Shown in pieces: positions 14,174-56,349 of a DNA stretch of 64,000 nt. Origin of the DNA: a bacterium (lineage in GTDB: Bacteria; Cyanobacteriota; Vampirovibrionia; Gastranaerophilales; Gastranaerophilaceae). Location: the NCBI GenBank assembly GCA_024408855.1, contig JAKSUQ010000005.1, positions 1-64,000 on the forward strand, read 5' to 3'. The translations under genes were made by a program, and so were the position numbers. The notes below the pieces were generated by a model that saw nothing but the letters and a program-made list of their open reading frames with translations, did no database searches and had not been told where the DNA came from. Numbering within the stretch: position 1 is the stretch's first letter; each line of letters opens with the position of its first letter.

Positions 14174-14947
14174 ATGGATATATTTGCTGTTATAGGTCTG
14201 TTTTTCGGAATGGGCATGATTTTAACCGGTCAGGCAATGGAAGGTGGTAATCTCGGACAATTATTGCAGATTACAGCAGCGTTTATTGTTCTTGGTGGTA
14301 CAACCGGAGCTATTATATTAAGTTTTCCGGCACCGATACTAAAACTTGCGATATCCATGCTTAAAAATGTGTTTTTCCCGCCTAATACTGATTTTCAAGG
14401 TTTAATAAAGGAAATTGGTGGCTTTGCAACAAAAGCGAGAAAGGAAGGAATTATTGCACTTGAAAAAGAAGCTCAAAATGCTTCAGATTCGTTATTGTCA
14501 TTGGGATTAGGTGCTGTTGCTGACGGTACGGATCCGTCGCTTGTTCGTTCAATGATGGAAAATCAACTTGAGCAGTTGGAAGCACAAGTCGCGAGTGCTG
14601 CAAAAGTTTATGAATCGTTTGGCGGATATTCTCCTACATTAGGTATTATTGGTGCAGTTATGGGATTAATTCAGGTTATGCAAAATCTTTCCGATCCGTC
14701 TAAATTAGGTGCCGGAATAGCAGTTGCTTTCGTTGCAACAATATATGGCTTATTTGCGGCAAACTTGGTTATGATACCACTTGGAACAAGAATGAAATTT
14801 ATATATCAAAATGTGTTCCTTTATAAAAATATGATTATTGAGGGTGTTCTTTCTATTCAGGCAGGAGAAAGCCCGGTGCTGATTGAAAGAAAACTCTATT
14901 CGTTCTTATTGGATGCGGGTCCAGAGGGTAATCAAGCAAATGGCTAA
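14174..14947 (+). CDS. motA: MotA-type proton channel (flagellar stator family)
   Basis: MotA with MotB forms the proton-driven stator of the flagellar motor. The 257-residue protein has the four-helix MotA layout: MDIFAVIGLFFGMGMILTG at the N terminus, GQLLQITAAFIVLGGTTGAI next, a cytosolic loop, then FGGYSPTLGIIGAVMGLIQV and AVAFVATIYGLFAANLVMIP. GGAG precedes the ATG. It overlaps the MotB gene by 8 nt. No flagellar structural gene lies in the window, so whether it drives a flagellum or another machine (such as a glide- or envelope-type motor) is not decided by this sequence. Confidence 0.85.
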   Translation: MDIFAVIGLFFGMGMILTGQAMEGGNLGQLLQITAAFIVLGGTTGAIILSFPAPILKLAISMLKNVFFPPNTDFQGLIKEIGGFATKARKEGIIALEKEAQNASDSLLSLGLGAVADGTDPSLVRSMMENQLEQLEAQVASAAKVYESFGGYSPTLGIIGAVMGLIQVMQNLSDPSKLGAGIAVAFVATIYGLFAANLVMIPLGTRMKFIYQNVFLYKNMIIEGVLSIQAGESPVLIERKLYSFLLDAGPEGNQANG

Positions 14948-15986
14948 AAAGAAAAAAGCGGAAGAACATGAAAATTTAGAAAGATGGCTCGTTTCATACG
15001 GGGACTTTATAACGTTGCTTTTTGCAACCTTTGTTGTGTTGTATGCTCTTGCTCAAATTGATGCTACGGATTTTGCTAAATTAGAAGAATCTTTGAAAAA
15101 TGCCTTTAATCAAAACACTCTTCTTGATGGTCAGCAAAGTGTTCTTGACGGAAGTGATTCTCTTTTTGATCAACAAACTGCAAATTCATTTATTCCGTCG
15201 CTCATGGTTGAATATATAAGTCCTAAATATGAAAATGACTCTTTTGAAGAAATAAGCAATGAAATTAAAGAACTGACGAATATGGGTGAATTATCCGGCA
15301 TAAACTCTAAAATTACAGACAGAGGATTATTGCTGACTTTTGATGATAAGTATTTGTTTGCTCCGGGCTCAGCAGTGCTTGATAATAATGCAAAAAAACT
15401 TTTAGATAAAGTTGGAGTATTAATTTGTAAAAAATTTATTTTGCACAATATGTTAGTAGAGGGGCATACTGATAGCATGGCGATTAATAGCGGTGCTTAT
15501 CCGTCAAATTGGGAACTTTCAAGTGCGAGAGCATGCTCTGTTGTAAGATATTTAATAAGAAGATTTAATTTTTTACCGAATTTGTTTTCCGCAATAGGTT
15601 ACGCTGATACAAGACCTCTTGAAACTTCAATATCTCCTAAAGATGCTACAAATAGGAGAGTAGAAATTCTTATATTACGTAATAAGTATTCTCAGCAAAC
15701 TGGTTTGAATAATGTTTATACAAATCTTTCCAAAAAACAACAGGAAGAAATTCAGGATAAAAGAGCAAAGATAATTCAGGAAGTTCAAGGGGATTCAATT
15801 TCGCAAGCTGCAAGGAAACTTTTGGAAGATAATCAGAAAAAATTGAAACAACACAAGAGCGAGAAACTTTCTAAACGAAATATGGAATTGTATGTGAATA
15901 TAGATGATAATGGTGAAGATGAAAAAACGCAAAAAGTTATCAAATTAAATACGGCAATTCCGTCCGATGAGGATTTTGGCTTATGA
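14940..15986 (+). CDS. motB: MotB-type stator protein with OmpA-like domain
   Basis: MotB anchors the stator to peptidoglycan and carries the proton-binding Asp. After a Lys-rich start (MAKKKKAEEHENLERWLVSY) comes GDFITLLFATFVVLYALA, whose Asp matches the conserved proton carrier. A periplasmic linker follows, then an OmpA-like domain with VEGHTDS, LSSARACSVVRYLI and NRRVEILI. About 90 charged residues, absent from short MotB proteins, follow it. The start is set at 14940, overlapping motA by 8 nt, with GAGGG about 10 nt upstream. An upstream in-frame ATG at 14883 lies inside motA and is unlikely. Confidence 0.85.
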   Translation: MAKKKKAEEHENLERWLVSYGDFITLLFATFVVLYALAQIDATDFAKLEESLKNAFNQNTLLDGQQSVLDGSDSLFDQQTANSFIPSLMVEYISPKYENDSFEEISNEIKELTNMGELSGINSKITDRGLLLTFDDKYLFAPGSAVLDNNAKKLLDKVGVLICKKFILHNMLVEGHTDSMAINSGAYPSNWELSSARACSVVRYLIRRFNFLPNLFSAIGYADTRPLETSISPKDATNRRVEILILRNKYSQQTGLNNVYTNLSKKQQEEIQDKRAKIIQEVQGDSISQAARKLLEDNQKKLKQHKSEKLSKRNMELYVNIDDNGEDEKTQKVIKLNTAIPSDEDFGL

Positions 15987-52861: not shown

Positions 52862-52883
52862 AAGGTGCATTACATTGCACCTT
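52862..52883 (-). terminator. Intrinsic terminator of the 52917-56349 gene set
   Basis: AAGGTGCA (52862-52869), loop TTACAT, TGCACCTT (52876-52883). On the minus strand it is followed by TTTTGTTTT, so it ends the transcript of the 107-residue gene that stops at 52917 and separates it from folC. Confidence 0.8.
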
Positions 52884-52916: not shown

Positions 52917-53240
52917 TTAATACGAGAATGAGCTTTGGATAGAGTCAGAAACAGCTTTTTGGCATGATTGAAGTTCTGCTTCAACCATTTGTAACCTGTT
53001 TTGATATTCTTGCATCTGAATATCTAATTTCTTTTCCAGAACGCTCAACTTATCTCGTCTTGCTTCTAACTGTTTAACCGCAGGATTTTCGGGATCCAAA
53101 TCATTGCCAAGTCCGAGTACTTCGTCAGAGGATGCGACCAATTCCATTTTTGCTGTTGCAATCCACTGGATTTTTGTTTCCAAGGTGAACTTGTATGCTG
53201 TTAAATACATCATTCTGTAACTTGCAGTTATTAATCCCAT
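52917..53240 (-). CDS. Short helical 'bookend' protein of unknown function
   Basis: A 107-residue protein, not recognised, that is almost wholly helical. The N terminus (MGLITASYRMMYLTAYKFTL) and the C-terminal coiled coil (about 55-107, ending KAVSDSIQSSFSY) match in form the two ends of the 491-residue protein at 54874-56349, but the large middle is missing. The shared C-terminal pattern is E-[IL]-x4-K-[AV]-V-[GS]-D-[NS]-I-[EQ]-x-S-F. GGAAGGA precedes the ATG. It is the last gene before the terminator and 17 nt after the 89-residue gene. Confidence 0.6.
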   Translation of the reverse strand: MGLITASYRMMYLTAYKFTLETKIQWIATAKMELVASSDEVLGLGNDLDPENPAVKQLEARRDKLSVLEKKLDIQMQEYQNRLQMVEAELQSCQKAVSDSIQSSFSY

Positions 53241-53257
53241 AACACAATCCTTCCGAT

Positions 53258-53527
53258 TTATCTTGTTTCGTTGAGATTTTTGCCTTTCAGGAATGTATGT
53301 TCATTGTTTTCGGCAATCAAGTTTTCCATTTTGTAAAGCTGATGTTGATGATAAGTAACACGGTACTTTGCCATTTTCAACTTTTGCCTGATGGTCAACA
53401 TGTCCTTTAGGCTTGCCAACAAACTTTCAAATAATGCTTTTATCGGATTTTTTCGTACAAAGAATGCACGAGCAAAATTCAAGAAATTCATTAATTTATG
53501 TATGCTGTCTTGTATCTCCTCACGCAT
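53258..53527 (-). CDS. Small basic helical protein of unknown function
   Basis: An 89-residue basic protein, not recognised, predicted to be mostly helical (FLNFARAFFVRKNPIKALFE then LLASLKDMLTIRQKLKMA). AGGAGA precedes the ATG. On the minus strand a TATAAT lies about 36 nt upstream of the ATG (window 53563-53568), so it may start its own transcript with the following 107-residue gene. It lies in the set of unrecognised genes at 52917-56349. Confidence 0.55.
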   Translation of the reverse strand: MREEIQDSIHKLMNFLNFARAFFVRKNPIKALFESLLASLKDMLTIRQKLKMAKYRVTYHQHQLYKMENLIAENNEHTFLKGKNLNETR

Positions 53528-53628
53528 AGATTTTTTCTCCTACACGAAATGAGTCTACACATATTATAAAACATGTTGGTGCCCATAATTGCTTATATTT
53601 ATTCTTTTTTGTTACAAAATTTAACATG

Positions 53629-53859
53629 TTATTTAATAATTGCCTCACTACGAATTGAACTGTTAAAAATAAATTTGTTTTTGTAATCGTTTTCTGTTAC
53701 ATTTTTATCTAACGGCACAAATTCTGAAAACTTTAATTCTTTATTAGAAAAATAGTATTGTTCATTACAAAATTTTACAAAACTGTTGACAGTTCGACAA
53801 ATAACGTTGTCAACGAATAATTTTTCAAACATTGTTCTAAAAAAAGTACGTCCTTGCAT
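53629..53859 (-). CDS. Small protein of unknown function
   Basis: A 76-residue protein, not recognised, with no visible membrane helix. AAGGA precedes the ATG at 53859, which is the main reason to prefer it over the overlapping frame 53775-54035. It lies between the glycine-rich gene and the 89-residue gene on the same strand. It might be a small partner or chaperone of its neighbours, but that rests on position only. Confidence 0.45.
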   Translation of the reverse strand: MQGRTFFRTMFEKLFVDNVICRTVNSFVKFCNEQYYFSNKELKFSEFVPLDKNVTENDYKNKFIFNSSIRSEAIIK

Positions 53860-53898
53860 TTTTCCTTATTCCTTAAGGGTTCAATTTTTATTAAGAAC

Positions 53899-54765
53899 CT
53901 ATAAATCTTGAATTTCTTTGCTCTTGCCTTCCAAATCATCTTTAAGCATTTTCTTAACAACATCACTTTGGGTATCAAGCATTTTGCAAACTGTTTCAAT
54001 ATTCGCGACTTTTTGAGAAAGTATGGTATCGGCATTTGAGAGTACGTTTGCGGAAACAGATTGATATGCTGAAAGTGCGGCAGATGTTGTTCCCTGCATT
54101 AAATTTCCCATAACGACAGCCGGCAGACCAAATTCTCCCAAATAAGGAGCTGCGGCAGTCATAATTCCGCCCCAACCGGAAACAATTCCGGCAAGAGGCA
54201 TTAATATATTTGAAGCCCCGATACCGTATCCGTTGGCTGTACCAATGCCGTATGCAGCTGTGCTTGCGATATCAGCAATACTTCCTATTCCTGAAGCAAA
54301 ACCTGTCGGAGTTCCGTTAGAGCTTCCGTATCCGAATAAATAATTTCCGATACTTGCGGCACCACCGGTTGCAAATCCGCCGAGTCCTGTCCTGTAACCG
54401 CTCAAACTTGCAGCATAACCGCTTGGAAATCCTGAATAGTTGCCTAAACTGTTAACTCCGAAAGACGAGTATGTTCCGTTAAGTCCGCCTGTACCTCCTG
54501 TATATGGCGACCAATAAGATGTTCCCGGAATATTCATTGCGGTTGTTCCGCCCAAAGTTGTCATAAATGCTGACGGTGCAAAAAGGCTTGCTAATTGGTA
54601 TAAGAAACTTCCTGCACTCTCAAAACCAGTTCCCGAAGAAGCTGAGCCGGAAACGGTTAAATCTCTTAACCGGTCATATGTTTCGTATAACATAGCTTTG
54701 GCATCAGATGAAGCTGAGCCGTATTTGTTTGCTATTACGAGATATCCGTCATTTTTGTAAGCCAT
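53899..54765 (-). CDS. Glycine/serine/alanine-rich protein with helical C terminus
   Basis: A 288-residue protein of unknown function. The first 45 residues (MAYKNDGYLVIANKYGSASS and on) are followed by a 180-residue tract rich in Gly, Ser, Ala, Tyr and Thr, with few charged residues (TGGTGGLNGTYSSFGV, GYGSSNGTPTGFASGI). The C-terminal 55 residues form a charged helix (VANIETVCKMLDTQSDVVKK). There is no signal peptide. The composition resembles exported structural proteins rather than enzymes. The ATG lacks a good ribosome-binding site. It lies between the 491-residue and 76-residue genes. Confidence 0.6.
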   Translation of the reverse strand: MAYKNDGYLVIANKYGSASSDAKAMLYETYDRLRDLTVSGSASSGTGFESAGSFLYQLASLFAPSAFMTTLGGTTAMNIPGTSYWSPYTGGTGGLNGTYSSFGVNSLGNYSGFPSGYAASLSGYRTGLGGFATGGAASIGNYLFGYGSSNGTPTGFASGIGSIADIASTAAYGIGTANGYGIGASNILMPLAGIVSGWGGIMTAAAPYLGEFGLPAVVMGNLMQGTTSAALSAYQSVSANVLSNADTILSQKVANIETVCKMLDTQSDVVKKMLKDDLEGKSKEIQDL

Positions 54766-54873
54766 TTTTTTAGTTAATAAGTAAATAAGGTTTATTTTTA
54801 TATGCTTTTTTACTTATTTATCCTTTCTTTTTTGTTGATTATTTTAATAATTATTTTGATTATGTCAATTATA

Positions 54874-56349
54874 TTAACCGCCGAATGTCTTGAACGATTT
54901 TTCAATGTTATCGCCTACGACTTTCGAAACTGCATCAATTTCTGTTGATAATGCTTTTTGTTCGGTGTCTAATTGTTTTAATCGCAATTCCAACTGTACA
55001 TCTTCCTGCTGAATGATTGAGGTTTTTGCATTTATGTCCTGAATAGTTTTGTCATACTTAGCATTCAGGTATGTATATTCATTCATTGCATCTTGATAAG
55101 CGACATCATCCGTAACTGTTTCCATATTAAGGGTGTATGTAACCGAGTCATCTTCAAACCTAATTGAAGTAAATCTTCCGCTACCGTCTGTTTCTACCAA
55201 TGCGTTTTCTGTTTTTTCGATTTTAGTTTGAACATAAGTTGCGTTGTAGTATGGCAGCTTGATTTGTCCGTCAATATTGTTTGGTCCTGTTCCGCTCGAA
55301 TAGGATGCGTCAAGATCCTCAAAGGTTGTATAATAAGTTATTCCGTTTAGCTTGAATTGATATATACCGCCGATATAATTGCCGTTGACATCAAAACAGC
55401 TTGAAATGTTAGAAGTAATTCCTTGTTCTTCAAGGTCTTGAATGACTTGTTGAATTTCAGCCAACTGAGCATTATTTAATTCTGCTAACGGTGTCAAACG
55501 ACAGTTGCCTACATGGGTTGGGTGATTTAAATCGTTATATGCTTGAATTGCTTCATTTAGTGCGGTTTCTTTATTATTGATTTCCTCATGCAACGTTTGA
55601 CTTATACTATCAATATTATCTGTATTGTACAACGGAATTTCAGTAATACGGTTTTCATTATATTCAGTAATATCAGACATTAATATAAAGTTTAAATTAA
55701 TAGGGTCAAAATATAAATCATTTAATGAAACACCACTGTCAAGAGCACCATTTCGTACAAGCGTATTGTATGCCCTACGCAGCACATCTTTATCAGTATC
55801 GTCTAAATTGGTAAAACTTTTGTAGTCTCCATAATTGCCATCAGTGTCTGAATCAAAAGGTAGAGATGGTGTGTATTGGTCATTCGAATAGTTTTCAATA
55901 TTTCTAAGGTCTGCTAAGGCACCTTCGTATGCTGATCGTGCTAGATCAATAGCCTCTTTGTTATTCTTTATTTCTCCAAAATTAGTGTGAACTGCATCTT
56001 CATCAAACTGTACTTGCGGGTCAGAGAGCAATTTCATTGAGCCGGTGTACCTGTCTGTGTAGTAATAATGGGTAACAACATAGTTATAATTTTCGCTTTG
56101 AGGCCCTAATTGCTGCCATTCGGCGATTACGGATGAATTTATACCGTCGCTGTATGAGTATTGAACTTTTGTATAGTCAAGTGTGCTTGGAGGTACAGGA
56201 ACCTGTAATCCGAGCATTTGATTAAAAAGATTGGCACTCTGATTTGACAAGGCTGTTCTTGCCTGATTAATCTGTTGTCCTTCATATTCACAATTAGTTT
56301 TTCTTGCCACCAGAGCCAAATATCTGGCTTGAGAAGCTGCCATACCCAT
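54874..56349 (-). CDS. Large protein with terminal helical 'bookends' and an Asn/Tyr/Asp-rich middle
   Basis: A 491-residue protein of unknown function. The N-terminal 45 or so residues form a helix (MGMAASQARYLALVARKTNC, EYEGQQINQARTALSNQSAN). The middle (about 55-425) is rich in Asp, Asn, Tyr and Thr with beta-like stretches and no Cys-rich or catalytic pattern. The C-terminal 65 residues form a coiled coil (LELRLKQLDTEQKALSTEID, VSKVVGDNIEKSFKTFGG). The layout resembles axial proteins such as flagellar hook or type III-secreted subunits, whose two ends pack as helices, but no family is recognised. No signal peptide. AGGAGA precedes the ATG. Confidence 0.6.
   Translation of the reverse strand: MGMAASQARYLALVARKTNCEYEGQQINQARTALSNQSANLFNQMLGLQVPVPPSTLDYTKVQYSYSDGINSSVIAEWQQLGPQSENYNYVVTHYYYTDRYTGSMKLLSDPQVQFDEDAVHTNFGEIKNNKEAIDLARSAYEGALADLRNIENYSNDQYTPSLPFDSDTDGNYGDYKSFTNLDDTDKDVLRRAYNTLVRNGALDSGVSLNDLYFDPINLNFILMSDITEYNENRITEIPLYNTDNIDSISQTLHEEINNKETALNEAIQAYNDLNHPTHVGNCRLTPLAELNNAQLAEIQQVIQDLEEQGITSNISSCFDVNGNYIGGIYQFKLNGITYYTTFEDLDASYSSGTGPNNIDGQIKLPYYNATYVQTKIEKTENALVETDGSGRFTSIRFEDDSVTYTLNMETVTDDVAYQDAMNEYTYLNAKYDKTIQDINAKTSIIQQEDVQLELRLKQLDTEQKALSTEIDAVSKVVGDNIEKSFKTFGG

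Follow-up and report, generated by a model that had tools for sequence, protein, structure and literature searches.

The window analysed here is a stretch of 64,000 nucleotides (contig JAKSUQ010000005.1 of assembly GCA_024408855.1, positions 1 to 64,000 of the forward strand) from a bacterium of the Gastranaerophilaceae. A set of minus-strand genes within it encodes a 491-residue protein, termed the bookend protein after the helices that enclose its large middle, a Gly/Ser/Ala-rich protein of 288 residues (G288) and three smaller proteins. The original prediction, made from the sequence alone, had described five open reading frames (ORFs) ending at a terminator, and all of these elements were located as follows.

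54874-56349, minus strand: 491-residue bookend protein with an N-terminal helix, a beta-rich variable middle and a C-terminal helix (ORF, family alignment and structure model)
56212-56346, minus strand: its conserved N-terminal helix, residues 2-46, motif MGMAASQAR.. (AlphaFold2 predicted local distance difference test score, pLDDT, of ~90 and paralogue identity)
54880-55107, minus strand: its conserved C-terminal helix, residues 415-490, motif LDTE..ALSTE..DNIEKSFKTF (AlphaFold2 model and paralogue identity)
53899-54765, minus strand: G288, candidate tip or pore-type partner (composition and phyletic set)
53629-53859, minus strand: 76-residue ORF, not generally conserved
53258-53527, minus strand: 89-residue basic helical protein, possibly a dedicated chaperone (conserved in the family and beside G288 in distant families)
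52917-53240, minus strand: 107-residue short bookend-family protein, two predicted helices flanking a DPENP turn, without a middle (profile–profile and hidden Markov model, HMM, matches)
52862-52883, minus strand: intrinsic terminator 3' of the gene set, hairpin AAGGTGCA-ATGTAA-TGCACCTT followed by a T-rich tail

The set had been described as unrecognised, and in a scan of the five ORFs no member reached a Pfam or NCBIfam cut-off, so that no confident match to a known family was obtained. The matches returned from Pfam, NCBIfam and PHROGs were all sub-threshold, mostly to coiled coils, and were rejected. A phage origin was likewise not indicated, the set being without relatives in the viral contigs searched.

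Conservation was assessed in the family of the window's source genome (38 genomes; hereafter the home family) and in the other families of the class; families carry the labels f1–f9, and f3, f8 and f9 are distant from the home family. The order 491-288-89-107 was found on one strand, with strong homology for each gene, in ~28 home-family genomes, within the limits of the stretches retrieved; this conservation is far beyond chance. The expectation that the set stays together across Gastranaerophilales was thus confirmed for four genes. The 76-residue ORF was matched in only two genomes (L046 and L047), of one other genus, and the general set is therefore one of four genes and not five. In f3, f8 and f9 a G288-type gene is present, with a minimal bookend gene of 109 residues directly upstream and a homologue of the 89-residue protein directly downstream. 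The 89-residue protein is conserved in the home family and is related to the homologue beside G288 in the distant families with a profile–profile E value of 3.8e-7. A divergent coiled-coil protein of 203 residues (L053:6514-7125) adjoins the module; it is kept in seven of the family loci that were read and is absent beside the module of the window.

The source genome contains seven bookend proteins, namely the 491-residue protein and six paralogues on six other contigs. All seven start with MG[ML][AS]A[ST].. and finish with a coiled coil, and the middle differs in length and sequence; mean pairwise identity is 46% over the first 46 residues, 18% over the middle and 42% over the last 77. Relatives in the home family have 12-20 bookend matches per genome, with open frames of up to 882 residues. 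In an alignment of 34 bookend proteins (A6; the 491-residue protein with its orthologues and paralogues), none of the 34 had a flagellin, rod or hook match in Pfam, and only stray sub-threshold matches were seen. A T3SS_needle match (E = 0.36) was dismissed as chance because it lies in the wrong region of the 491-residue protein, its middle. A sequence search of solved structures gave no strong relative; the best match was a repetitive helical, apparently designed protein and was rejected. Matches in a collection of genome contigs belong mostly to Gastranaerophilales and Melainabacteria metagenome-assembled genomes and to gut bins, many of them from ruminants. Three further family members were noted for their surroundings: a 547-residue gene (L087:7726-9369) directly adjoins prophage-like genes (terminase, portal and capsid-like by sequence), another (L017:8290-9333) begins ~340 bases past two small genes 3' of flagellar fliP-Q-R-flhB-flhA, and a third (L020:8408-9625) lies ~1 kb from a FliI gene (L020:10615-11961) whose product is below both the FliI and the SctN equivalog cut-offs.

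The 107-residue protein is a short member of the same family. Its profile matched the bookend N-terminus with E = 1.2e-5, and the bookend HMM found six of its orthologues (1.4e-10 to 0.004). The 109-residue proteins of f3, f8 and f9 were found by the same HMM with E values of 1e-21 to 1e-31; their identity to the 491-residue protein is 22-28 residues out of the first 45 and 13-21 out of the last 40, and they have no middle. Since this version, at the same locus, consists of the two ends alone, the ends are taken to be the core and the middle an insert; judged by these sequences, the middle has the character of an insertion into the turn that joins two helices, in keeping with the bookend idea. 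In one f9 genome two 109-residue genes stand in tandem (L182:10219-11101). None of six short members matched the needle family PF09392 up to E = 1.

The AlphaFold2 model of the 491-residue protein (mean pLDDT 77.5, predicted template modelling score 0.40) places helices at residues 2-46 and 415-490 with pLDDT ~90 on either side of a mostly beta middle. The two end helices pair in the model, which bears out both the predicted shape and the predicted end-to-end packing. Flagellar axial proteins made up 23 of the 50 best structural matches in a second search, mostly aligned over both ends, with Z scores of 6.6-8.7. The proposed likeness to axial proteins thus fits the model and the natural ends-only version, at Z scores that are not decisive.

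The bookend family was found in 56 of 117 genomes of the class, and a G288-type gene in 53 of the same 56 and in none outside them (Fisher p ~4e-30, a value inflated by the relatedness of the genomes). Every family with both possesses, in addition, a second FlhA that differs from flagellar FlhA. Among 292 genomes sampled across the phylum, bookend matches were confined to the order of the source genome, and no f3, f8 or f9 genome was among the matches listed. One home-family genome (G088) lacks a full FlhA copy as well as the 288-type gene and any good 107-type match.

G288 is encoded by a single copy and has two adjacent hydrophobic Gly-rich stretches at approximately residues 187-219 (maximum 19-residue mean 1.5) and a long helical C-terminus. 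Homology was found neither to the bookend family nor to type III translocators.

A full-length FHIPEP (FlhA) match was present in 37 of the 38 home-family genomes, in one copy each. Flagellin, MotB and FlgI (P-ring) are absent from 37 of the 38, the exception being the source genome; a full second FlhA is present in 36 of these 37 flagellin-less genomes. The source genome and f3, f8 and f9 have flagellin, stator and P-ring genes and usually two FlhA copies. The window itself contains a MotB plug-domain match (14946-15107, plus strand), the source genome being the flagellated exception in its family. In the FlhA tree, flagellar FlhA forms one clade and second FlhA a separate one, within which a subclade (support 100/99) unites the single home-family copy with the second copies found in the source genome, f3 and f9; the copies of f4, f5 and f6 are its sister group. 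The second copy of f8 was not placed, and the program warned of long branches. The second FlhA is below both curated cut-offs (701 against 772 bits for FlhA and 586 against 692 bits for SctV, TIGR01399), and FliI, FliF and FliH also fall under both the flagellar and the injectisome equivalog cut-offs. The source genome has a FliI/YscN subfamily match of 561 bits (cut-off 380); the YscJ_FliF ring protein match is 112 bits. FliP (PF00813) was found in 12 of 12 genomes checked, with one copy in the five flagellin-less family genomes among them and two in genomes that have a flagellum as well. Matches to Flg_bbr_C, the rod/hook C-terminal domain, number 1-3 per flagellin-less family genome versus 4-12 in flagellated genomes; a close reading of one flagellin-less genome gave FlgB, FlgC and two FlgF/FlgG-like proteins. 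Proteins of ~495 residues with the cytosolic FlhA domain only and an unrelated N-terminus were also seen (L084:15224-16702 and L086:8755-10242), and frames of ~500 residues matching the cytosolic half of FlhA occur in nearly all home-family genomes.

In the family genomes read, the module is followed downstream by an operon of the order fliE-fliF-(gene at the fliG position)-fliH-flhA. The 288-type gene lies 7-18 kb from the second FlhA in 21 genomes and on a different contig in most others. In an f3 genome (G014) fliE lies ~6 kb and an FlgF/FlgG-like rod-type gene ~8 kb from the module (range 6-9 kb; genes named by sequence).

On these observations we think it probable, at roughly 0.6, that the products of the four conserved genes are exported components of a second type III machine, which is not flagellar and in which the bookend proteins are axial subunits. 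The machine would be ancestral in the class and would survive where the flagellum has been lost. It would export the 491- and 107-residue proteins and the dispersed paralogues, whose paired N- and C-terminal helices would, by packing, form the core of a needle- or filament-like structure, leaving the variable middle facing outwards, surface-exposed and possibly in contact with the host. The ancestral subunit would have been the 109-residue two-helix hairpin still present in the distant families, with the middle inserted at its turn. G288, as a single-copy hydrophobic protein with a helical C-terminus, is probably a secreted tip or membrane-contacting partner, and the 89-residue protein probably a cytosolic export helper. 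Observed here are the gene set, the family, its ends-only relatives, the phyletic and gene linkage and the distinct FlhA lineage; we infer that the proteins are exported and assemble axially, and likewise what G288 and the 89-residue protein do. Several points weigh against this interpretation. No bookend protein has a needle or flagellin match in Pfam; a Foldseek search with the 491-residue model returned nothing at E <= 0.001, and the Z scores lie within the range given by unrelated helical arrangements, so that, as the search program warns, the likeness may be no more than a common arrangement. The G288 model (pLDDT 42) is unusable, so that a pore role is argued from composition. The sampled genomes are related, and counts of co-occurrence among them are therefore not independent observations; f4, f5 and f6, the sister families, possess related FlhA copies without a detectable module, and a search for divergent modules near FlhA in f4 and f6 gave nothing convincing. 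In the source genome the module and the second FlhA are on different contigs, and the protein at the fliG position (L053:14294-15316) has no Pfam or NCBIfam family match.

Alternatively, the bookend proteins might be a varied group of secreted adhesins or effectors, substrates with nothing in common but their export and chaperone-binding ends, which do not themselves build the axial structure. The number of matches per genome, their very different middle sizes, their dispersal on the chromosome and the hypervariability of the middle would all suit such substrates; however, both ends are conserved and an ends-only member is kept at the core locus in distant families, which is more readily expected of a structural subunit than of a mere signal for secretion, and we regard the substrate explanation as unlikely. 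The original prediction had allowed for a secreted filament or an injected effector, and it is supported in part: the set does accompany a second type III export system, and for the 491-residue protein an effector is less likely than a structural subunit.

A still more doubtful alternative is a cytosolic coiled-coil scaffold or an envelope-associated structure that shares only ancestry with the second export system. Scaffolds commonly have coiled-coil ends, the first reading of the sequence saw no signal peptide, and the module of the source genome is unlinked to the second operon; against this stand the linkage in 21 family genomes and in G014, the near-identical phyletic set and the Lys-poor, Asn/Thr/Ser/Gly/Tyr/Asp/Gln-rich composition. 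That the genes are remnants of a decaying flagellum, with export and axial genes lacking a present function, was the conclusion of earlier papers (PMC4040986; PMC3787301), which read loss, and agrees with the missing flagellin, motor and P-ring genes of 37 of the 38 genomes. This would be expected to place the FlhA of flagellin-less genomes within the flagellar clade, and the tree gave the opposite: the FlhA that was kept is not the flagellar one and belongs to an ancient second lineage, which other genomes of the sample have side by side with a flagellum. Almost every family genome has this FlhA intact, and the module has been both conserved and expanded; decay is very improbable.

The proteins of the module, bookend proteins and partner alike, are previously undescribed. 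A wider proposal, put forward tentatively and at somewhat less than even odds, is that Gastranaerophilales and related families carry a third type III machine lineage, neither a flagellum nor a described injectisome, which would have its own needle or filament family and tip or pore protein at the surface of gut bacteria and in which an ancestral 109-residue hairpin would have given rise to twelve or more variants at the surface. Incomplete flagellar gene sets in these bacteria have been read as flagellar loss (Soo 2014, PMC4040986; Di Rienzi 2013, PMC3787301; reviewed in PMC5877343), and two flhA genes of ACD20 are given in a methods list (PMC3787301). A literature search covering titles and abstracts, without subscription papers and preprints, found no paper describing type III secretion in these bacteria. 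Most Gastranaerophilales were thus seen as having kept a useless flagellar subset; here the FlhA that they kept represents a lineage of its own, old and separate, which has a conserved gene module and goes with a family of candidate surface proteins that is variable and has expanded. If these are exported, gut bacteria that are common and for the most part uncultured would possess an undescribed protein-export appendage able to make contact with host cells or with neighbours, which would also explain the puzzling incomplete flagella of Gastranaerophilales.

Like the flagellar axial proteins (flagellin, FlgL/HAP3, rod and hook), the bookend proteins pair end helices around a variable, presumably exposed middle and are linked to FliE/FliF/FlhA-type genes; unlike them, they have their own end motifs, lack Flagellin, rod and hook Pfam matches and accompany a second FlhA, not flagellin. 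The 107-109-residue members, predicted two-helix proteins with a Pro-containing turn (DPENP or DPDSP), presumably resemble the SctF needle hairpins (MxiH, PrgI and YscF), a likeness that serves as a lead only; SctF needles have ~80 residues versus ~109 in the short bookend members, which lack a PF09392 match. G288 is like the type III translocators in its hydrophobic Gly-rich stretches, amphipathic C-terminal helix, single copy and neighbouring axial-type genes, and differs in its lack of detectable homology, its model being unreliable. The second machine shares FlhA/SctV, FliP, FliF/SctJ, FliH/SctL and FliI/SctN with non-flagellar type III systems and flagellar export, and is set apart from both injectisome and flagellum by the sub-cut-off scores of FlhA, FliI, FliF and FliH. 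In most of the family it is without filament, P-ring and motor, and it keeps FliE and FlgB/FlgC/FlgG-like rod genes.
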